From the NCBI RefSeq assembly GCF_009905545.1, contig NZ_JAAALB010000040.1, positions 1 to 57,637 of the forward strand: a stretch of DNA of 57,637 nucleotides, given 5' to 3'. The position numbers were made by a program, and so were the translations under genes. How positions within the stretch are numbered: the stretch's first letter is position 1; every line of letters begins with the position of its first letter. This stretch comes from Cellulophaga sp. BC115SP. Lineage in GTDB: Bacteria; Bacteroidota; Bacteroidia; Cytophagales; Spirosomataceae. Of the stretch, positions 4,219 to 57,637 are shown in pieces. Below the pieces are notes generated by a model. The model was not told where the DNA came from and made no database searches. It saw nothing but the letters and a program-made list of their open reading frames with translations.

Positions 4219-5754
4219 ATGAAAAAGATATTTAAGATAACCTTTTTAGGAATAGCGATAGGTTTGGGAATGACTGCTTGTAATACAAGTCTCGATCTAG
4301 CGCCCATCAGTAGCATCAGTGACGCTAATTATTGGAAAACAGCCGATCAATTCGATGCTTTTATTTCAGGAGTTCATTCAAGACTAAGAAGTCATAATGC
4401 CAATATTCAAGCTTTGGGCGAAATGCGCTCTGATATATTTGGTACTGAAGCTAATAGTGCCAGTACCTTCACGGGTGAGGCCACACAAGGCTTAGAAAGA
4501 ATGTGGCAACATACCCTCGATTTAGACAATTCAGGCGTGAGCAATTTTGGAGGATTTTATACCAATATTGTGCAGTTGAATTTATTGATTAGTAAGTTAA
4601 ATACGACCAATATCGTAAGTACTACCAACAAGAATTACTATTTGGGCATAGCCTACGGTATGCGTGCCTATTACTACTTCCATTTGTATCGTACATGGGG
4701 AAGCGTAGTGATTCAGACTGAGCCAGTTTTGTCCATTGATATTGCCAACTTGGCGAAGGAGGCTTCTCCAGAATCAGCAGTGATGGATTTGATAAAATCA
4801 GATATTGATAAATCTATTGCTAGTTTTGGTAGCGATTATTCTTTCAGAAATAATAAAGGCTATTGGTCAAAAGCCGCTTCATTGATGCTCAAAGCAGAAG
4901 TATCATTATGGAATAGTCAAAGAGGTGGTGGCGTAGCCGATGCTACAACAGCATTGAATGCTTTGAACGAAATCAGAACCAATATCCCAAACCTTACGCT
5001 GTTGCCAAGTTTTAGCAATGTTTTTGCCTCAAATAATAAAGGTAATAACGAAATCATTTTTGCTATTCGCTATGTGTTGAATGAAGCAAGTATGGGTTTT
5101 GTATCAAGTAGCTTTGTTCCACAAACAGGCTTAATTTCAAACTTTTATGACTTGAATGGCTCTCGCCAGTTCAACGTAAATGTTGACAACTGGAGTGGCT
5201 TATTGCGTGCCCCTGTGCGTATTGCCACATTCAAAAAATTTGATGAAGCTGATACTCGTCGTTTGTCTTCGATTCAGCCAGCTTTTGAGAAGCGTAGCAC
5301 AGGTTTTGAGCTAGTAGGCTGTTTTACCAATAAATTCCAAGGCGAGCAAAATGCAGGCTCACGTGTATATACTAACGATTATCCGATTTATCGTTTTGCT
5401 GATTTGTTGTTACTTACTGCCGAAGCGAAAATACTGTTAGGTCAAGATCCTTCTACCGAAATCAATCAGGTGCGTGCTAGGGCTTTTGGGGCTAATTATG
5501 TGGCTAGTAAATATGGCTTTCCGAATCAAGCCAGAGATAAAGACCCTAAAAATGCTATCTTAGATGAACGTTTGTTTGAGTTCATTTTTGAAGGAAAACG
5601 TTGGTACGACCTTCGTAGATTTGGTAATAGCTATGTTTTTGCCAATACGACTTTATCAAGCAACGAAGCTTATAAAGTGCTATGGCCAATCGACCGTAAC
5701 TCATTGACAAATAACCGTTCGTTGGTACAAACAACGGGGTATCCAAGCTTTTAA
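4219..5754 (+). CDS. SusD/RagB-family glycan-binding lipoprotein (NanU-like)
   Basis: A 511-residue surface lipoprotein that caps the SusC barrel and captures the glycan. It has a lipoprotein signal (residues 1-21, MTAC with acceptor Cys), the SusD helical TPR-like core with MRAYYYFHLYRTWGSVVIQT (about 149-168), and the conserved C-terminal RagB stretch RLFEFIFEGKRWYDLRRFG (about 451-469). It begins 18 bp after susC and is surely cotranscribed. An inverted repeat at 5786-5833 separates it from the lyase gene, so the importer pair and the catabolic genes may be expressed at different levels. Confidence 0.93.
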   Translation: MKKIFKITFLGIAIGLGMTACNTSLDLAPISSISDANYWKTADQFDAFISGVHSRLRSHNANIQALGEMRSDIFGTEANSASTFTGEATQGLERMWQHTLDLDNSGVSNFGGFYTNIVQLNLLISKLNTTNIVSTTNKNYYLGIAYGMRAYYYFHLYRTWGSVVIQTEPVLSIDIANLAKEASPESAVMDLIKSDIDKSIASFGSDYSFRNNKGYWSKAASLMLKAEVSLWNSQRGGGVADATTALNALNEIRTNIPNLTLLPSFSNVFASNNKGNNEIIFAIRYVLNEASMGFVSSSFVPQTGLISNFYDLNGSRQFNVNVDNWSGLLRAPVRIATFKKFDEADTRRLSSIQPAFEKRSTGFELVGCFTNKFQGEQNAGSRVYTNDYPIYRFADLLLLTAEAKILLGQDPSTEINQVRARAFGANYVASKYGFPNQARDKDPKNAILDERLFEFIFEGKRWYDLRRFGNSYVFANTTLSSNEAYKVLWPIDRNSLTNNRSLVQTTGYPSF

Positions 5755-49303: not shown

Positions 49304-50068
49304 TTATTTCTGATTAAAGTTTTTACTAAAATTATAACTTAACATTACATTCCACATAAATTGTTTATTATCTGGAATAGTAGAAGTAAATGTCTGATTT
49401 ATTGTTGATTGTATGGTAAAAGGACTCTCTTTTTTTGATAAAATACCTGTTAATGAGAGATATTTACCTGTGTAACCATCGGTATTCAAAAAATAGAAAG
49501 ATGGTACAAGCTGGAATCTCAAATCACCTCCCAATTTTATGTTAGAAATACTGGTATTCAGAAACAAAACTTTGGTTTCTTGTGGTCCATGCAATTGTAG
49601 CGCATTTCCTTGCAAGTAAACAGCACTCACACTCCAATTGGATGTAATTTGATAATTGGGCATAATTTCATAGGCCAAAAATCTCAACATTTCCGTAATT
49701 TCTTGCGACGCAGTGTTATCTGAAACAATTCTTTTGACAAGCGTAAAAGCTGGATGTGCACTTACGCGTAAGCTAAACTTTTTTTGTTCGACTAATTGGT
49801 ATCTCAACCAAAAAATCATTCCTCCTTTGCTGGCATCCGACACTAATCTTATGTCAGGATTGAAACTAAATCGGTTTTTACGCCATGCGAAATTGGTTAC
49901 TACCGCTGGTCGATTTAAAGAGAAGGTTGGAATAATCGAAAAACCATTATTGGTCACTCCCACAAAACCGCTAAAGGTATTAACCGTTTTGGTACTGTCC
50001 TGTTGCCCATAAACGAGCCTACCCATGAGAGCAAATGCCATCAGGGTACATAATTTCATCAAGTTCAT
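49304..50068 (-). CDS. Hypothetical secreted beta-rich (outer-membrane-like) protein
   Basis: A 254-residue protein with signal peptide (1-21, ending VYG). It has alternating amphipathic beta strands and a C-terminal aromatic-rich strand (QFMWNVMLSYNFSKNF), as in small outer-membrane barrels. I do not recognise a named family. It is the first gene of the operon with the molybdenum hydroxylase subunits, so it may be a channel for the enzyme's substrate. That is inference only. Confidence 0.7.
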   Translation of the reverse strand: MNLMKLCTLMAFALMGRLVYGQQDSTKTVNTFSGFVGVTNNGFSIIPTFSLNRPAVVTNFAWRKNRFSFNPDIRLVSDASKGGMIFWLRYQLVEQKKFSLRVSAHPAFTLVKRIVSDNTASQEITEMLRFLAYEIMPNYQITSNWSVSAVYLQGNALQLHGPQETKVLFLNTSISNIKLGGDLRFQLVPSFYFLNTDGYTGKYLSLTGILSKKESPFTIQSTINQTFTSTIPDNKQFMWNVMLSYNFSKNFNQK

Positions 50069-50099
50069 TTATATTGTGTTTTTGGATAATGTAAATCAG

Positions 50100-50121
50100 T
50101 TTCAAAATTATACTTTTGAAA
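50100..50121. promoter_or_regulatory. Shared divergent promoter/operator palindrome
   Basis: TTTCAAAA (50100-50107) and TTTTGAAA (50114-50121) are perfect arms around six bases. Inside lie two opposed -7-like octamers, TACTTTTG (50111-50118, plus) and TAATTTTG (50103-50110, minus). The site sits between the AraC gene and the molybdenum hydroxylase operon and could fire both ways under AraC control. Confidence 0.45.
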
Positions 50122-50231
50122 GTCTAGTTTTTTTATAAATTTTACGGTTTTACTTACCACTTTTACTGGTCTATGCCTTACGAATATTTTTCTTCCATAA
50201 TTTAGAAGTATCAACAAAATGGAAAAAGACC

Positions 50232-51116
50232 ATGGTTATTTATGATACCGTCAAGCAGTATAGTCAGACATTCAACAACTCGGCGTTCCATCCTCTGATT
50301 AGTTTAGTCGATTTGGGAAAATCGAATCCCTTACCCCGTAGCAAATTCAAAATGGGAATTTATGCTATCATTATTAAGGAATCCAAATGTGGTGACTTGC
50401 GTTATGGCAATACTTATTATGATTATGACGAAGGGACTATTGTATTTTTTGCTCCTGAACAAATCATTTCAACTGAGCCAGAAGGAGAAATGCATCAGCC
50501 CTTTGGCACTGCTTTGGTTTTTCATCCAGACTTAATTAAGGGAACATCTTTGGGGCGACAAATTCATGAGTTTAATTATTTTTCGTATCAGTCAAACGAA
50601 GCATTACACGTATCTGAACGAGAAAAAGAAACTATCATGAATTGTATCGAAAATATTTCTTCTGAAATCAATCAAAATATTGATAGACATAGCAAAAAAC
50701 TCATTATTGCTAATCTTGAGCTATTATTGAAATACTTTTCAAGATTTTATGACCGACAGTTTATCACTCGAGAGGAAGTTCATCAAGGTATCCTTTTGCA
50801 ATTTGACCAACTACTGACCGATTATGTATATGGGAAAGATTTGGCGACGAAAGGGCTTCCATCGGTAGCATATTTTGCAGACTGCCTGCATTTATCCGCT
50901 AATTATTTTGGAGATTTAATCAAGAAGGAGACGGGGAAAACGGCACTAGAATATATCCAATTAAAATTATTGGATTTCGCAAAGGAACGAGTTTTGGATA
51001 CCACCAAATCGCTAAGTGAGATTTCGTATGAATTGGGCTTTAAATATCCCCAACATTTTACCCGATTTTTTAAGCAAAAACTAGGTGTTACACCATTAGA
51101 ATATCGTTTAAATTAG
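50232..51116 (+). CDS. AraC-family transcriptional regulator
   Basis: A 294-residue regulator with an N-terminal cupin-like ligand domain (about 20-130) and C-terminal double helix-turn-helix: SVAYFADCLHLSANYFGDLIKKETGKTALEY then LSEISYELGFKYPQHFTRFFKQKLGVTPLEYR, a canonical AraC ending. It is divergent from the molybdenum hydroxylase operon (163-bp gap) and likely controls it and perhaps the cupin/cyclophilin-like genes beyond. Ligand unknown. Confidence 0.9.
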   Translation: MVIYDTVKQYSQTFNNSAFHPLISLVDLGKSNPLPRSKFKMGIYAIIIKESKCGDLRYGNTYYDYDEGTIVFFAPEQIISTEPEGEMHQPFGTALVFHPDLIKGTSLGRQIHEFNYFSYQSNEALHVSEREKETIMNCIENISSEINQNIDRHSKKLIIANLELLLKYFSRFYDRQFITREEVHQGILLQFDQLLTDYVYGKDLATKGLPSVAYFADCLHLSANYFGDLIKKETGKTALEYIQLKLLDFAKERVLDTTKSLSEISYELGFKYPQHFTRFFKQKLGVTPLEYRLN

Positions 51117-51131
51117 CCATGAGCCATTCTT

Positions 51132-51300
51132 AATTGAGTGAATTGAGATTGAGTGAATGAATGATTATTTTCAAATTAGGATTGTATTCCAATTTTTTGA
51201 TAATACAATACTGGATGACACAATTTTATTACGTCTTCACAGGTGAAATATTTATTTTTAAAAAAAACCACTAAATCATTCAATCTCAATTCACTCAATT
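51132..51300. repeat. Inverted-repeat element between convergent genes (MITE-like)
   Basis: Perfect 21-base inverted arms (51132-51152 and 51280-51300; word AATTGAGTGAATTGAGATTG) enclose about 127 bp. The left flank and arm share wording with 17428-17475 (CATGAGYCATTCYTAATT, then GAATGAATGATTA), so the two regions look like members of one dispersed family. It lies between the stops of the AraC gene and hipT and may also end transcription. Confidence 0.6.
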
Positions 51301-51308
51301 CAAGCTTT

Positions 51309-52313
51309 TTATTTATTCAGACTATTCCTTCGAGTATTATACATTTGCCAATAGCCTCGTCTATTATTTTCATTCAAAAAAGAATGATTGATTAGGGTTT
51401 CAACTAATGGTTGTTTCTCTAGAAATGGCATAAGTATTTTTTCTATTCTGCTTTCCAATACGCCTATTCTTTTACCTAATTCCACAAAATCTGCTTTTGC
51501 TGGGTGCCCTGATTTTTTGAATTCTACGCTTTGAAAATCATCTATGAATAGCCCTCTATCCAAGGCAAAATCAGTATCATCGACATGAAGTCTTGTATTG
51601 ATTAAATCATAAGCGGGACTCAACAGATAATCTCCGCCGGAAGATTCAAGCAAGGAAAAGTTTTTCAAATGGGCATCGCCGTTGCTAAACAAATAATTGA
51701 ATACCACCAACACAAAATACTTTTCAATCTCTACACGCCACGCTGGTACGTACTGTTTTATGAGTGCGCCAATTTCTTCATAGCTATATTCATATTTGAA
51801 ATTAGCACCCGCATTATCTTTTGTTTTTCCAGCCAAGGTTGCAAAATCCTCCTTACCCCATTTTCCTCCATCTTTCTTTACATCAAATCTTTTGGTGATA
51901 TAGGCTGGCGAGCCATCTTTAAAAAATATCAAGGCATTTTCTGCTGTATTGAGTCCGTACACTTGTTTAGCAATTTGCATGGTCAAATGCTCATTTGCAG
52001 GCACTTGATCAACTTTCTTTAAATCTCTCGGAATTGGTTTCAAAATATAAGTACCTTGTTCTCCTTGATGTGTTAAGCGAAGTTGATTTTTTTCGAGTAC
52101 CAAACTCAATTTTTCTTGTACCCCCGAAATAGAAATGCGTTTACGATTTTCTATAAATAACTCGGCGACTTCCTCATTTTGCTGAGCTTGTTCATAAGGC
52201 AAAATATGGTTTACTTTTTTGCCATTAAACATATTTCTCAAGCAACTCGGACTGTAAGTGTTAAATCCTTCCGCTAATGTTCCAGGGCAATATGTTAATT
52301 CATGTAGATTCAT
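51309..52313 (-). CDS. hipT: HipT-like toxin kinase (HipA C-terminal domain)
   Basis: A 334-residue HipA-type Ser/Thr kinase lacking the N-terminal subdomain, which is encoded by the preceding gene. The glycine-rich loop reads RISISGVQEKLSLV with two serines, S61 and S63, as in HipT of the E. coli O127 HipBST system. Catalytic D213 and N218 lie in FSNGDAHLKNFS, and the DFG-like D236 in SPAYDLINTR. Such kinases phosphorylate aminoacyl-tRNA synthetases (HipA GltX, HipT TrpS). Its ATG overlaps the preceding stop (ATGA), so translation is coupled. Likely plasmid stabilisation toxin. Confidence 0.87.
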   Translation of the reverse strand: MNLHELTYCPGTLAEGFNTYSPSCLRNMFNGKKVNHILPYEQAQQNEEVAELFIENRKRISISGVQEKLSLVLEKNQLRLTHQGEQGTYILKPIPRDLKKVDQVPANEHLTMQIAKQVYGLNTAENALIFFKDGSPAYITKRFDVKKDGGKWGKEDFATLAGKTKDNAGANFKYEYSYEEIGALIKQYVPAWRVEIEKYFVLVVFNYLFSNGDAHLKNFSLLESSGGDYLLSPAYDLINTRLHVDDTDFALDRGLFIDDFQSVEFKKSGHPAKADFVELGKRIGVLESRIEKILMPFLEKQPLVETLINHSFLNENNRRGYWQMYNTRRNSLNK

Positions 52314-52639
52314 TTTTCTATCAAGGGTTTTACCGTTACGGCTCCGATGGTATCGCTTTGGGCTGTCGCCATCAATAGACCAAAACTATCGTCTTCATCT
52401 ATGCGTAATTGTGTGCTTTGTAGTTTACGATTTACCCCTTCACTGAGCATATTAAAAAAGAAAGGGAACAGCACCTCACTAGTGTATTCTTGCTGGCTCT
52501 TAGGAAGCGTCAGACTTATAGCTGGCATTTGGGAGTCATCGAAATAATTTTTATCGTATTTGAAAACAAACTGCTTTCGATTTTCCTCTATGAGGATTCC
52601 TGCAAAAATACCATTTCGATAGACCGCTACTTTTCTCAT
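52310..52639 (-). CDS. hipS: HipS-like protein (HipA N-terminal subdomain)
   Basis: A 109-residue protein equal to the HipA N1 subdomain (couple_hipA family): VYRNGIFAGILIEE at the start, AISLTLPKSQQEYTSEVLFPFFFNMLSEG in the middle. In HipBST the separate HipS is the true antitoxin of HipT. It starts 3 bp after hipB and overlaps hipT by 4 bp. A frameshifted full-length hipA is unlikely, because each piece has its own start, natural end and coupling overlap. Confidence 0.83.
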   Translation of the reverse strand: MRKVAVYRNGIFAGILIEENRKQFVFKYDKNYFDDSQMPAISLTLPKSQQEYTSEVLFPFFFNMLSEGVNRKLQSTQLRIDEDDSFGLLMATAQSDTIGAVTVKPLIEK

Positions 52640-52642
52640 TAT

Positions 52643-52852
52643 TTACGCATTTTTTTTAATGTCCATGGATAAAACCAAACCAAGTACTTCTGCCAATTTA
52701 TTGAGAACCTCTAAAGAAGGATTTCCCTGTCCTCGTTCGAGTTTATACAGAGTGTTTGTACTTATACCTGCCAATTCAGCCAAATGTGGCTGAGTAATTT
52801 TCAACTCCTTTCGTCGTGTCTTGATGATATTTCCTAAATCCTGAACTAACAT
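52643..52852 (-). CDS. hipB: HipB-like XRE-family repressor
   Basis: A 69-residue helix-turn-helix protein: LGNIIKTRRKELKITQPHLAELAGISTNTLYKLERGQGNPSLEVLNKLAEVLGL is a complete XRE/Cro domain. First gene of the hip operon, it should bind the three CACA-N6-TGTG-like sites at and upstream of its start codon. In HipBST it is the autorepressor and augments HipS. Confidence 0.88.
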   Translation of the reverse strand: MLVQDLGNIIKTRRKELKITQPHLAELAGISTNTLYKLERGQGNPSLEVLNKLAEVLGLVLSMDIKKNA

Positions 52853-52984
52853 TATATTGTGATTTTTATGTAAAAATATCTTTTTTCAGCAGAAATTCAA
52901 GCACAAAATCACATTATAATATGATTTATACGTAATTTCTATTTCAAATGCTTATTCATTAAATAAAACACACATTATATTGTG
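52848..52984 (-). promoter_or_regulatory. Three HipB operator candidates at 61-62 bp spacing
   Basis: The near-identical 14-mers at 52848-52861, 52910-52923 and 52971-52984 (consensus CACATTATATTGTG, arms CACA/TGTG) recur at 62 and 61 bp, about six helical turns. The first overlaps the hipB start codon. The even phasing fits cooperative autorepression by HipB with DNA looping. Confidence 0.65.
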
Positions 52985-53127
52985 ATTTTATCGTTATTTC
53001 CAGTATCATCAATCTATTAAATAAGTTGATGTTGTACTCAAAAACAGACATTTTACTAAACTGAAAAACGACTTTTATAGGGATTTTTACTTTCCAAAAA
53101 CCCCTATACACTTCATATTGCCCAAAA

Positions 53128-53526
53128 GGACAAAATGTCCGCTTGCATAAAAGCTTACTCCAAACCTTCAATTAAAAACGACTTTTATGGGTATTTTAAA
53201 AATGGAGTTTTTGAAAACACTTACTCAAAATACACCAAGAGGACAAAATGTCCGCTAGGTATTCTTTATTGAGAATTTTATACCGTGCACAGATTTAACC
53301 TCAAAATTTTCATGTTATGGTTTTAGTATTTTTCTCAAGCGGACATAATGTCCTCTTGGGAAAAATACCACTTTGAGTCATTTTAATAACGACTTTTATG
53401 GGGTCTTTAACAATAAATGAGCTATTGACATTATCTTTTAAAACTATAAAAAATACAATTTTATTTATATAAAAACATTGTAAAACTCAAACTATTAAAA
53501 TAATAGCCCAAGCGGACAAAATGTCC
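53128..53526. repeat. Four parS-like palindromes
   Basis: The cores GGACAWAATGTCC at 53128-53140, 53241-53253, 53341-53353 and 53514-53526 are flanked by CCAAGM on one side and KCTTGG on the other, with few deviations. They adjoin the parAB operon, the usual place for a centromere. They do not resemble the chromosomal parS TGTTTCACGTGAAACA. ParB binding is inferred. Confidence 0.65.
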
Positions 53527-53541
53527 ACTTGGGCTATTATT
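53499..53541 (-). terminator. Hairpin after parB containing one parS-like core
   Basis: Arms of 20 bases (53499-53518 and 53522-53541), one mismatch, three-base loop. On the minus strand the stem is followed by TTTTAATAG. It starts about 20 bp after the parB stop, so it should terminate the par transcript, and its tip is the fourth parS-like palindrome. Confidence 0.7.
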
Positions 53542-53560
53542 GAAAAAAGGACTTTATTAT

Positions 53561-54439
53561 TTAATCAATCATGAAGCCTTCGAGTGAATTTACCAATTGC
53601 TTGAGCTGGTCAAAATGAGTTTTTGATTTGGATGCTTGAACCGTCTTTAGCATAGCGTTAATATCCTTGAACACTTTATCAGGAGTAGCTTCTGACGAAG
53701 AAGTAGACAAAGAAGCTGGCTGTGACACTACCGAATCCAAGGCTGCAATACTCGAAATAGGTTGCTCCACAACAGCTTTGCTCAATTGTTGAATAACTTT
53801 TTTGGGTACCTTTACTTCTCCTGAGAGGACTTGTTTGCGAAGATCAATATCCAATTTTTCAAGACCGCTGGCAAAGTCACCATCTCTACGAATAGTTTTT
53901 TCATCAACTTTAAACTGTTGCGCTATTTTTTCAGAGGTTTTTAATTCCATTCCCTCTGTTGAAAAATTAGATTCCTTGCTTGTCAATTTTTCAGCATTGT
54001 ATCTCAATCCACGGTAATAGGCCATCTGTGTCGGGCTCAAATTGCGACGCCCCATTTGAAGGTCAAGCATATAATTACGAGCTTCAAGGATGGTCTCAAA
54101 AAACATCAGCACAATATTGAAAGGCAGATTATGTTTTTGACAAATCAAGTATCTATTGTGACCATCTACCAATACAAATAGCTCTTGGTCAGTCTCCGAA
54201 TTGGGATTGACTTTCTGCTCGGTAGTTTGCCAAATCACTAAAGAGTCCTTACAACCATTAGCCAAAATATTAGCTTCAAGTCCTTCTAATTCTTCTGTTT
54301 GTAAGGGTTGAATCAAGTCTTTGAGTTCGTCCAAAATCGTGATTCGCTGCTTTATATTCTCATTCGAAATTAAACCAGAAGTTACAGTCTTAGTAACGTT
54401 CGATTTCATTTGAGCCTTAAAATCTATCTTCTTAGCCAT
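53561..54439 (-). CDS. parB: ParB-like plasmid partition protein
   Basis: A 292-residue partition protein. The ParB/sulfiredoxin-like N-terminal domain (about 35-130) has IQPLQTEELEGLEANILANG and LVDGHNRYLICQKHNLPFN. A helical DNA-binding middle (LSPTQMAYYRGLRYNAEKL, KTSEKIAQQFKVDEKTIRRDGDFA) and a C-terminal dimerisation part follow. Its ATG lies directly after the ParA stop. It likely binds the palindromes just downstream and activates ParA. Confidence 0.9.
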   Translation of the reverse strand: MAKKIDFKAQMKSNVTKTVTSGLISNENIKQRITILDELKDLIQPLQTEELEGLEANILANGCKDSLVIWQTTEQKVNPNSETDQELFVLVDGHNRYLICQKHNLPFNIVLMFFETILEARNYMLDLQMGRRNLSPTQMAYYRGLRYNAEKLTSKESNFSTEGMELKTSEKIAQQFKVDEKTIRRDGDFASGLEKLDIDLRKQVLSGEVKVPKKVIQQLSKAVVEQPISSIAALDSVVSQPASLSTSSSEATPDKVFKDINAMLKTVQASKSKTHFDQLKQLVNSLEGFMID

Positions 54440-55408
54440 CTATTTCGAATTACGTTTTGAATTAATATTATTGAGAAGTTCTAGCGCCAACTCATCATAC
54501 GATTTGGCAGCGGCAGAGTTTTTATCAAAATCAAAAATTGGCGCTTTCAAAGCTTGTGCTTTTTTAATTTCAATGCCTTTTTTGATTTCAGTATCAAAAA
54601 TATTGACGCTTTGATAGTTTTCTCTAACTGCTTCTTTCATACTGGTATGCACAGTGTTTTTTTCAACTATCGTAAACAAAATACCTTCAATATGTAAAGT
54701 TGGATTTGAGAAAATTTGTGTCTCATAAATTACTCCAAAAAGTGAGTTAAGACCATTTACCGCATTCATTTCTGGTTGCATAGCCACAATGCACGAGTTG
54801 GCCGCATTTAATGCATTGAGAGTCAAAACCGATAGGGAAGGAGGACAGTCTATTAAGATAAAGTCATATACATCCAGAAATGGAACTAACGCTCTTTGCA
54901 AACGCTGTTGGCTAGCTGGAGCTGAAAGTAGCGTTTGTTCAGCTTTTTGAAGTTCTAAGTCAGAGGGAGCAATATGTAAGTGTTCCGTAACTTCTTCGAT
55001 ATGCAATGGAATGGTATAGTTGACCAAGGAATTAAACACTTGTCCATTCTCGGTAGTCACATTGAATATCTGACTTAAGTTGCCTTGAGAGTCAAGGTCA
55101 ATTAATAATACCTTCAAACCACGATTCGATAAGGCTTCACCCAAGTAAGCAGTTGTGGTTGTTTTTCCAACTCCTCCTTTATTATTGGCAATGGCAATGA
55201 CTGTAGCTTTAAGATTGAAAGCTTCATTATAACCATATTTCATCAGAACAGGCAACAATTTGCTACGTTGCTTATCGGTAAGTTCGCGCTTAAGAGAGAT
55301 AATTTGAGTGAGCGAGCGAATCGCCATGCCAGCTTCTTTTTCTATACCCGTGATGGTAAGGGCTGGATTTCTATTGAGAAAACGAATTAGTAAGTCTGTA
55401 GTAAGCAT
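54440..55408 (-). CDS. parA: ParA-type partition ATPase
   Basis: A 322-residue Walker-type ATPase that moves plasmids over the nucleoid. The deviant Walker A is NNKGGVGKTTTT (75-86), Walker A' is LLIDLDSQGNLSQIF (102-116), Walker B is FILIDCPPSLS. About 65 N-terminal residues look like a small DNA-binding domain (TITGIEKEAGMAIRSLTQIIS), as in type Ia ParA proteins that repress their own operon. An inverted repeat at 55416-55463 upstream is a candidate operator. Confidence 0.93.
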   Translation of the reverse strand: MLTTDLLIRFLNRNPALTITGIEKEAGMAIRSLTQIISLKRELTDKQRSKLLPVLMKYGYNEAFNLKATVIAIANNKGGVGKTTTTAYLGEALSNRGLKVLLIDLDSQGNLSQIFNVTTENGQVFNSLVNYTIPLHIEEVTEHLHIAPSDLELQKAEQTLLSAPASQQRLQRALVPFLDVYDFILIDCPPSLSVLTLNALNAANSCIVAMQPEMNAVNGLNSLFGVIYETQIFSNPTLHIEGILFTIVEKNTVHTSMKEAVRENYQSVNIFDTEIKKGIEIKKAQALKAPIFDFDKNSAAAKSYDELALELLNNINSKRNSK

Positions 55409-55415
55409 AAAAAAG

Positions 55416-55463
55416 CATTTATTGTGTAAATATAATATTTGTATTTTATCTATACAATAAATG
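55416..55463 (-). promoter_or_regulatory. Candidate par operator (inverted repeat)
   Basis: CATTTATTGT (55416-55425) and ACAATAAATG (55454-55463) are perfect inverted arms 28 bp apart in the 69-bp gap between rep and parA. The site is well placed for autorepression by ParA or ParB. Confidence 0.5.
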
Positions 55464-55477
55464 TCATTTTTTATATC

Positions 55478-56836
55478 TTATAAAACTAAGCCAAATTCTT
55501 TTGCTTTGGGAAGATAAGGATCCTTAATTTTTTGAAAATCTGCAATAAAATGACTTTTACACCAAGTTACAACAAAACTCGTTACCATAAACTGCTGATT
55601 CTGAATCGCTCCATAAAATTTCATGGGAATAGAGCTTTCATTTGAGGCTAATATATATTCCCAAACTAGCTCGTCGGTAACTGTTTTGGGTCCATTTTCT
55701 ATTTTGTTTTTAAGCTCATTATAAATCGCAACTCCCACAGTAGGATCAAACCTCAATAAATGAATCGCATATTCCAAACAGTCATCGTAATAGGCCTTGA
55801 GTAATGAATCTTTTTGATAAGTAATCGATTTTTCTTGAACTTTGATATTCTCTGTAATAATCAGTTGTTCTTGGTGAGCTCGAATCTTTAGCTCTTTCGT
55901 TTCTTGCTGTTTGACAATGTCTTCGGCACTCACCATCTTTTGTAAGTAACGAGCTGGATCTTGTACTTTTCCTTGTTTTATTTCTTTAAGCGTATATTCT
56001 ACTCCTGCCAAAATTTGGGCGTAAGGGTATTTCTTAAACCAAGTATTCACCACTGCTTCTGTAACATACTCTTTCACAAGTGTATGTATCTCCACAATTT
56101 GAAGTTGCAAACTTTCATCCACTTTTGTCTTTTGGCGATTTTCAATAATGATAAAACGCAAACGAATAACTTTTTTCCCTGATTTAATTTCTTCAAAATC
56201 AAAATATAAATCCGAACTACTTTCCAATTCTGTTCTGGCTTGTTGCAGGACTTTGAGCTTGAAATCAAAATAGTTTTTGTATCTGGTCGAAAGCCCTAAA
56301 CGATCTTTCAAGTCTTCAACATCTAACTCAAACGAGCCAAATCTTTCATACTGTTTACAGAATTCATAAAATCGAATAGCGTAGATACTATCTAAAAAAA
56401 GTAGATTACGTATATCTAATACCGTAAAATTTTCTTTAATCTGTAAAAGGAAGGGCTTGAGCTTATTAGAAAACTCAAAAATGAATTTTGCCTGAACTTT
56501 ATCGTAAACGATTGAACTAAAGAAGTTTGCTTCTAATTTGATTTTATCATCTTCGTAATAAATATCTTTTTTACGAAGCTTGGTCAATTCTTCTTGTAAG
56601 TATTTTAATAAGTTTTTGGTTTTGCCACCCACAAAGTTTTGAAATTCTTTCAGAGAAATCTGCACGTCAGGCAAATCATCATTGCTCTGATCGACAGATG
56701 CAATGACTTTCAGAAAAACTTTCATCTGTACTGCAGTAATGTCAAACTTAGCATTGATAATTGGATTGGTCTTGACTAATCTGTTGGGATCTCTTGAAAT
56801 AACTTCAATGGCTTTTTCTCTATGCTCTTTACTCAT
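55478..56836 (-). CDS. Replication initiator, Rep_3/RepB family
   Basis: About 452 residues. The N-terminal half (about 15-245) has the two winged-helix domains of RepE/RepA-type iteron-binding initiators: NPIINAKFDITAVQMKVFLKVIA at the start, then FSNKLKPFLLQIKENFTVLDIRNLLFLDSIYAIRFYEFCKQY and DLKDRLGLSTRYKNYFDFKLKVLQQA. The C-terminal 200 residues are a helical extension. The frame opens at TTG 56851; ATG 56836 (MSKEHREKAI) is preferred. It lies beside the iterons and reads away from them. A half-iteron inverted repeat precedes it. Confidence 0.9.
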   Translation of the reverse strand: MSKEHREKAIEVISRDPNRLVKTNPIINAKFDITAVQMKVFLKVIASVDQSNDDLPDVQISLKEFQNFVGGKTKNLLKYLQEELTKLRKKDIYYEDDKIKLEANFFSSIVYDKVQAKFIFEFSNKLKPFLLQIKENFTVLDIRNLLFLDSIYAIRFYEFCKQYERFGSFELDVEDLKDRLGLSTRYKNYFDFKLKVLQQARTELESSSDLYFDFEEIKSGKKVIRLRFIIIENRQKTKVDESLQLQIVEIHTLVKEYVTEAVVNTWFKKYPYAQILAGVEYTLKEIKQGKVQDPARYLQKMVSAEDIVKQQETKELKIRAHQEQLIITENIKVQEKSITYQKDSLLKAYYDDCLEYAIHLLRFDPTVGVAIYNELKNKIENGPKTVTDELVWEYILASNESSIPMKFYGAIQNQQFMVTSFVVTWCKSHFIADFQKIKDPYLPKAKEFGLVL

Positions 56837-56866
56837 GGACGATTTGGGCAACGATTTAGATGGTAG

Positions 56867-56892
56867 AACGACTAAGTATTTGTTTAGTCGTT
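56867..56892 (-). promoter_or_regulatory. Rep operator: inverted half-iterons
   Basis: AACGACTAA (56867-56875) and TTAGTCGTT (56884-56892) are perfect 9-bp arms with 8 bp between. The arm shares AGTCGTT with the iteron core. In RepE, Pi and RepA systems dimers repress rep at exactly such inverted half-iterons while monomers bind iterons; the same is inferred here. Confidence 0.65.
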
Positions 56893-56978
56893 TTTACGAA
56901 ATTAGTAGCTCTAAGTCACAAAAAAAAGTAAAAACGACACATTTTATCCACAGTCGTTTTTACAAAATGTGGATAATT

Positions 56979-57101
56979 CCCTATAAAAGTCGTTATTGAC
57001 CCATAAAAGTCGTTTTAATATCCCATAAAAGTCGTTTTATGACCCATAAAAGTCGTTTTACATCCCATAAAAGTCGTTTTATGACCCATAAAAGTCGTTT
57101 T
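56979..57101. repeat. Six tandem 17-bp iterons
   Basis: The repeats begin at 56979, 57000, 57022, 57043, 57064 and 57085, a period of 21-22 bp or two helical turns. The consensus is CCCATAAAAGTCGTTTT. The first is divergent (CCCTAT and CGTTA). A seventh copy is at 57276-57292. They are the binding sites expected for the adjacent Rep protein. Confidence 0.9.
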
Positions 57102-57422
57102 TAGCATACTTAAAATATTGAAAATCAAATAGTTATGAAGCCTGAAAGAATAGAAAGAAAAGGAAAGAAATGAAAGTATTTGACAAACAGCGTTGATTTT
57201 TTTTTATTTTTTTAAAAGTTTAAAAATAAGGATTTTTTCATTCAGTGATTTAGAAAGGATTGTCTATTGCGGTGCCCCATAAAAGTCGTTTTTCTTTGCT
57301 CGGTGAAAGAAGAAAAACAAAAAAGAAATCATGTGAAAATTTGAGGTATTACTGTAATTCTAAAAAAGCTCTCATATTTTGATTTTAAGCGCTCAAAATA
57401 TGAGAGTAAGGTGAATTGTTGT
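57102..57422. other. 321-bp gene-free stretch between iterons and regulator gene end
   Basis: It holds an AT-rich tract with runs of nine and seven T (about 57189-57215), the seventh iteron (57276-57292) and the terminator of the FadR-type regulator (57362-57406). No coding potential beyond short chance frames. Confidence 0.7.
57362..57406 (-). terminator. Factor-independent terminator of the FadR-type regulator
   Basis: CTCTCATATTTTG (57369-57381) and CAAAATATGAGAG (57394-57406) are perfect 13-bp arms with a 12-base loop. On the minus strand the stem is followed by CTTTTTT. It begins 16 bp after the regulator's stop codon and shields the origin from read-through. Confidence 0.82.
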
Positions 57423-57637
57423 CTATTCAGCAAAAAGTCTCGCAAAATGATTTTCTAGGTGGTTTCTCATGCCATTGCGGAAAAGTTCTGGCGAGCCATT
57501 CTCCAAAATATCTACTAAACCTTTGTGAGAGACAAACTTCCGATGAGGCAAATCTTTTTTTAGCAGGCCGCTATTGTGGACATAATCAAAAATCGGGAGT
57601 AACATTTTCTGGAAACTTTTGAGCGTTTTGTTGCCAG
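57423..57637 (-). CDS. FadR/GntR-family regulator, C-terminal part (continues at base 77 and lower)
   Basis: This is the 3' end of the regulator that begins at 573. Bases 57561-57637 duplicate bases 1-77, so the reading frame here joins directly with the frame at the left end. The part unique to this end encodes the last part of the FCD domain, including VSHKGLVDIL and MRNHLENHF, then stop TAG at 57423-57425. Read alone, the segment would look like an independent 60-residue gene starting at 57605, which it is not. A factor-independent terminator follows at 57362-57406. Confidence 0.88.
   Translation of the reverse strand, partial: GNKTLKSFQKMLLPIFDYVHNSGLLKKDLPHRKFVSHKGLVDILENGSPELFRNGMRNHLENHFARLFAE
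57561..57637. repeat. Terminal 77-bp direct repeat identical to bases 1-77 (circular contig overlap)
   Basis: The last 77 bases repeat the first 77 exactly, and an open reading frame passes through the join. A 77-base end overlap is what a de Bruijn assembler leaves on a circular contig at k-mer 77, so this is best read as an assembly overlap and not a biological repeat. Removing it leaves a 57,560-bp circle. Confidence 0.93.

Follow-up and report, generated by a model that had tools for sequence, protein, structure and literature searches.

Predicted initiator and centromere sites interleaved at one locus of a Rep3 plasmid: a candidate point of replication-partition cross-talk

What does it mean for a plasmid to carry predicted binding sites for its replication initiator and for its partition protein mixed together in a single non-coding gap? 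This question is raised by a locus of Cellulophaga sp. BC115SP on contig NZ_JAAALB010000040.1 (here C142), whose complete sequence of 57,637 bases forms the window analysed, within an assembly of 7.08 Mb and 206 contigs. The original prediction, made from the letters alone, described three inverted iterons alternating with four palindromes 3.6 kb from the origin, and all seven sites were recovered here. With I for iteron and P for a GGACAWAATGTCC palindrome, the sites follow the order I P I P P I P: distal iteron 1 (ACGACTTTTATAGG, 53068..53081, + strand), palindrome 1 (53123..53145, core 53128-53140), iteron 2 (ACGACTTTTATGGG, 53178..53191, +), palindromes 2 (53236..53258, core 53241-53253) and 3 (53336..53358, core 53341-53353), iteron 3 (ACGACTTTTATGGG, 53389..53402, +) and palindrome 4 (53509..53531, core 53514-53526), which is closest to parB. 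The palindromes are 23 base pairs (bp) long and parS-like.

The core of the distal iterons, ACGACTTTTATRGG, is present in three + strand copies at this locus and in seven - strand copies on the origin side (56980-57289), making the two sets identical in core and opposite in orientation, with 3.6 kb between the last distal and the first origin iteron. Judged by counts across the assembly, the clustering of both site types exceeds chance: the palindrome core GGACAWWWTGTCC occurs four times, always at this locus (reversed-pattern control, 2), while ten of the 12 occurrences of the iteron 14-mer are on C142 (control, 0). The remaining two lie on other contigs, inside open frames of 532 and 450 codons. 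The alternation itself was dropped as a statistical signal, since seven of the 35 orders of three iterons and four palindromes have at least as many runs, and no pattern of helical phasing is claimed from the site distances, which when divided by 10.5 give 5.67, 4.81, 5.95, 9.52, 4.62 and 11.86.

The locus was compared with its counterpart in Flectobacillus longus (L001), in an alignment that covers 53065-53531 with 7 gap columns. All seven sites are kept there in the same order, and 55 of 57 iteron bases and 86 of 92 palindrome bases are identical, against 208 of 316 in the spacers. Because iterons and palindromes are both kept while the spacers diverge, both site classes look selected. Conservation of the interleaving in related plasmids thus held in full for the nearest relative, while more distant ones mostly lack it. 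Two blocks that are neither iteron nor palindrome (~53090-53122 and 53437-53463) are also nearly identical in F. longus, the first holding an inverted CCCTATA half-iteron that faces distal iteron 1. The six site-to-site distances differ by at most 1 bp between C142 and F. longus (58/58, 52/53, 61/61, 100/101, 50/50 and 123/124), whereas two other gaps of the contig differ in length (192/166 and 163/150), and site spacing may be held by selection. Constant spacing was nevertheless set aside as evidence, since the gap between iteron 1 and hipB, which contains the hip promoter and has diverged like the spacers (66.5% identical), also differs by only 1 bp. ParB is 87% identical between the two species, Rep 97% and ParA 99%. 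Identity is 66% in the spacers on the parS side, compared with 88-94% in the gap at the origin and the one between rep and parA; because of these differences, the ParB/parS end appears either to evolve much faster than the Rep/ParA end or to have been exchanged.

Which proteins would read these sites? The genes rep, parA and parB lie at the right end of C142, all on the - strand. The rep gene (55478..56851) encodes a Rep3 initiator of 457 amino acids (Pfam Rep3_N, 1.7e-25; Rep3_C, 2.6e-13) and parA (54440..55408) a Walker-type partition ATPase of 322 amino acids (Pfam AAA_31, 2e-45), which adjoins parB (53561..54439), the gene of a likely centromere-binding protein of 292 amino acids. The rep-parA gap measures just 69 bp, and therefore the replicon has few long non-coding intervals besides the gap downstream of parB. 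The iteron array lies upstream of rep and consists of six tandem copies spaced by 20-22 bp (56980..57098, - strand), with a seventh, isolated copy at 57276..57289 (-). Between rep and the array, 56867..56958 holds inverted half-iterons (AACGACTA..TAGTCGTT and AACGAC..GTCGTT), repeats that are found in F. longus too; by analogy this region is possibly the operator of a Rep dimer, a role that we presume from such systems in general. Over 50000-57637, no Rfam family reached its gathering score. The same assembly contains nine Rep3 matches and eight genes of this ParB family, the C142 copy included.

The reading of the iterons as Rep3 sites is well supported, because of the inverted half-iterons upstream of rep and because a stretch ~75% identical to the C142 origin array lies upstream of repM in Acinetobacter pittii pApW20-4 (L232, 1501-1626), a gammaproteobacterial plasmid. 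The 4.5-kb core of the replicon matched 79 records of a plasmid collection, 76 of them from Acinetobacter (one was examined), and none across more than 80% of the core. Sparse extra copies of the replicon's own iteron, the pattern of inc-type control iterons, accompany the tandem array in 51 of the 62 Rep3 replicons that have one (at least two copies; the C142 count includes a weak match at 55454, in the rep-parA gap, not accepted as a site). They sit next to the origin in most mapped relatives. In four of the 62 (C142, L053, L094 and L186), a gap away from the origin contains two or more of these copies; those of L053 are stray, isolated copies, and L094 has no mapped parS, while the detached sets of C142 and L186 share their gap with parS. 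Sets of three or more sparse copies that all oppose the tandem array occur in one replicon, L086. Among 14 compared loci, the C142 Rep is nearest to those of L125 and L116 (51 and 48% identical), which hold their sparse copies on the origin side, while its ParA and ParB are nearest to those of L144 and L122, loci with different iterons and with Reps only 18-19% identical to that of C142. Reshuffling of the rep and par modules has thus taken place, and yet the distal iterons at the C142 parS match the plasmid's own Rep3, unlike the iterons of its ParB relatives. Origin-type iterons that lie outside the origin and match the cognate Rep are what would be expected of an inc (copy-control) locus.

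The palindromes, in turn, are best read as parS, that is, as predicted ParB sites. Although the C142 ParB has no Pfam match by itself, and sequence-profile searches of PDB and Pfam gave no identification, its AlphaFold model (mean predicted local distance difference test score, 76.5; predicted template modelling score, 0.66) matches ParB/Noc/KorB folds, best across the N-terminal domain, which is indicative of a ParB/Srx-type domain there. Pfam ParB_N detects only 2 of 37 members of this ParB family, leaving it largely invisible to Pfam. In a survey of 102 ParB clusters (loci L001 and L049-L201), 23-bp palindromes of this type lie beside parA/parB in 56, with up to 10 copies in a relative, and palindrome distance tracks the distance between putative ParB helix-turn-helix (HTH) segments (partial correlation 0.302 given ParA). 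The palindrome family has 10-bp arms with replicon-specific sequence, a 3-bp spacer and mostly a CA NNN TG centre. As the survey required an A at arm position 10 (the centre rule), the 100% frequency of that base there is no finding; with the rule off, 86 of 90 perfect palindromes with arm 10 and spacer 3 end in CA or AA. Spacers of 5, 7 and 9 give similar scores (94, 89 and 88 sites), as would be expected were many arms to exceed 10 bp. Together with the support for the iterons, this makes it well supported by sequence that the two site types belong to Rep and ParB, as had originally been proposed. A Walker-type ATPase gene beside parB, a ParB/Srx-type N-terminal domain and inverted repeats near parAB that go with the ParB are features of a type I ParABS partition locus.

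Several variants of these sites were seen. In C142, palindrome 3 lies inside a longer inverted repeat (53326-53368; arms of 21 nt, 90% complementary), as does palindrome 4 (53499-53541; arms of 20 nt, 95% complementary), directly after parB. Similar embedding, with arms of ~20 nt or more, occurs in L186 (4961-5590), and three of the four parS-type sites so embedded in L186 and C142 adjoin gene ends. Asymmetric parS-type sites with two unlike half-sites (for example CAAAGTATCA and CAAAAGCTCA) are found in L102 (4685-4941), L124 (9808-9931) and L153 (5807-6063), with a spacing of 33-39 bp in the arrays of L124 and L153. In L072 (5919-6829), parS-type sites are kept beside an open parA frame and a degenerate parB with in-frame stops.

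How common is interleaving? The claim that replication-control and partition sites normally lie apart proved true even in this plasmid family. Among the 35 clusters with at least three iterons and a mapped parS, a program called parS flanked by iterons in four (the C142 group, the L051 group, L175 and L186). Random placement would give 10.9 +/- 2.5 (range 5-20), in a null model that puts parS anywhere non-coding and disregards its tendency to sit near parB; the comparison shows only that interleaving is not enriched, and interleaving as a family rule was rejected. L175 was dropped on inspection, since the two 'palindromes' within its array match poorly and are rich in A+T. In L186, iterons at 5033 and 5354 lie between two perfect parS, an outermost match at 4931 (score 10.7) being weak and left uncounted. 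For the pair L092/L161, L092 is interleaved at a loose threshold and no longer so at a stricter one. The program assigned no parS to L102 and L124, where the sites are asymmetric, and L153 fell below its quality filter; read by hand, L102 has the order I P I P I I P I, and L124 and L153 are interleaved as well, the L124 iterons being found only in a looser scan. The ParBs of L051, L102 and L124 are 60-67% identical to one another. Interleaving is therefore seen in the C142/F. longus pair, in the L051/L102/L124/L153 lineage and in L186, which suggests at least two and probably three lineages, yet it is the exception. The composite pattern was found in none of the viral contigs.

The DNA itself shows the seven sites, how they are conserved, that the iterons fit the plasmid's own Rep and that the palindromes are associated with this ParB family. 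From them we infer Rep binding, ParB binding, inc activity and a coupling between these, and tentatively favour, at somewhat less than an even chance, a composite inc/centromere locus at which ParB occupancy modulates titration or handcuffing by Rep. The four palindromes just downstream of parB would form the plasmid centromere, bound by ParB, and a sparse set of inc-type iterons would have been relocated among them, away from its usual place beside the origin. Rep on the three distal iterons would titrate the initiator, and the resulting complex would handcuff the origin array, 3.6 kb off or on a sister copy, so that initiation is held back. ParB loaded at the four parS could then cover the ~0.5-kb locus and weaken the hold of Rep on the distal iterons, an effect that we propose because of the analogy with rctA of Vibrio cholerae chromosome II, where RctB binding inhibits replication and ParB2 relieves the inhibition (PMC3141006, PMC3688505). 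Restraint of replication would thereby vary with the state of the partition complex, in line with ParB2 at rctA. We are more doubtful of a stronger version, in which the locus is a dedicated switch: ParB assembly would evict Rep from the iterons, break the origin handcuff and license the next round only after a partition complex forms, and plasmids of this family would build such a switch by moving a sparse iteron array into the centromere.

A number of observations count against a coupled locus. Given co-location, alternation of this degree has P = 0.20 (7/35 orders), and constant spacing proves little when the neighbouring hip promoter gap keeps its length as well. The distal iterons lie 3.6 kb from the origin, beyond rep-parA-parB, whereas rctA lies at the ori2 edge. 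Interleaving is rarer in the family than under random placement (4/35), implying that it is not generally required, and among 390 genomes sampled across the order only two, both Flectobacillus, carry the exact composite. Part of the covariation between palindrome and ParB HTH is joint inheritance of the module, because palindrome distance correlates almost equally with that of ParA (r = 0.429; 0.275 given ParB HTH), a protein not expected to read parS. Finally, no parS was assigned in 46 of the 102 ParB clusters, L121 and L142 included, whose ParBs score highest against that of C142 after F. longus.

The main rival is an account in which ordinary inc-type iterons and ordinary parS share one non-coding gap as two independent functions with no mutual influence, and we regard this as quite possible. 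Both site types are conserved while the spacers drift, sizeable gaps are few in a replicon with 69 bp between rep and parA, the site order fits random mixing (7/35), and mapped relatives mostly separate the two site types. Related ParBs spread from parS, however, and four parS in ~410 bp would put ParB on the iterons if this one does so too; moreover, the detached iteron set lies in the parS gap in both well-mapped replicons that have one (C142 and L186; n = 2). The version closest to the original prediction, in which the two proteins cooperate, Rep handcuffing and ParB centromere pairing jointly holding sister plasmids until partition, is improbable in our view. The sites are adjacent, a detached array could bridge origin and centromere, and an inverted distal set would be compatible with looping, but sparse copies that all oppose the tandem array are not general (at least three copies only in L086), and in the V. 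cholerae analogue ParB relieves inhibition by the initiator. The distal iterons could instead be relics without function, left behind when origin DNA was inverted or duplicated, as their orientation and the rarity of the layout might suggest; this is very unlikely and already disfavoured by the identity of 55 of 57 iteron bases between species, against 66% in the spacers. That the palindromes terminate transcription, or serve some regulator other than ParB as operators, is a reading to which we give scarcely any credence: although two lie within inverted repeats (arms of 20-21 nt), one directly after parB, the hip promoter region is close by and ParA distance is nearly as good a predictor of palindrome distance as the ParB HTH, no site with a hairpin and T run was found at 52800-53620, the operator-like repeats of the hip operon differ from the palindromes in sequence, and relatives hold up to 10 copies near parA/parB with HTH tracking that persists after control for ParA.

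The hip-like toxin-antitoxin operon in question (51309-53000) lies directly beside the composite locus. Its three genes encode an HTH protein (52643-52852), a HipA N-domain protein (52310-52639) and a HipA_C kinase (51309-52313), preceded by three operator-like repeats (52843-53000).

On the sequence evidence, then, the interleaving is genuine and shared with a sister species; few relatives have it, and segregation could act through it on replication. The locus also exposes a family of parS-type palindromes that are specific to each replicon and tied to one ParB family. Cross-talk between replication and partition is already known, and this locus would be a variant form of such a site; among the matching titles and abstract openings listed, a small share of the matches in the larger searches, there was no description of the interleaved layout or of this parS family. 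The original statement that no described system has this layout is not supported as worded, given V. cholerae and other Rep3-ParABS replicons of this bacterial family. In L051/L059/L069, L102, L124/L153 and L186, as in C142, some parS-type sites are mixed with sparse iterons that fit the replicon's own Rep; unlike in C142, the mixed region lies beyond the origin array in the L051 type and downstream of rep in L186, and the iteron sequences differ. P1 incA and F incC likewise consist of additional iterons of the origin type at a separate place, which probably hold replication back through titration and handcuffing, but in P1 and F the iteron array is separate from parS/sopC, whereas the C142 iterons are interleaved with parS. 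Origin and parS-like functions also share one region in Deinococcus radiodurans cisII/cisMP, where a single set of repeats has been suggested as the target of both DnaA and ParB; distinct Rep iterons and palindromes are not described for it in the available part of the report (PMC7671480).

The best direct example that we found of a tie between replication and segregation in low-copy replicons is V. cholerae chromosome II, where parS2-B lies inside rctA, a region bound by the initiator RctB (PMC3141006, PMC3688505), and where a review describes spreading from parS2 and handcuffing by 39-mers (PMC6090056). As in rctA, predicted parS sites of C142 lie within a control region that is itself predicted to bind the initiator, and by analogy this precedent points to a ParB that opposes, rather than joins, the initiator at control sites. 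However, rctA, at the margin of the ori2 region, has a single parS and inhibitory 39-mers of a distinct kind, whereas C142 has four parS alternating with three origin-type iterons, on a Rep3 plasmid. The C142 locus thus offers a small plasmid case alongside the chromosomal one: its seven sites are defined, a sister species has conserved it, and in natural relatives the modules are separate.
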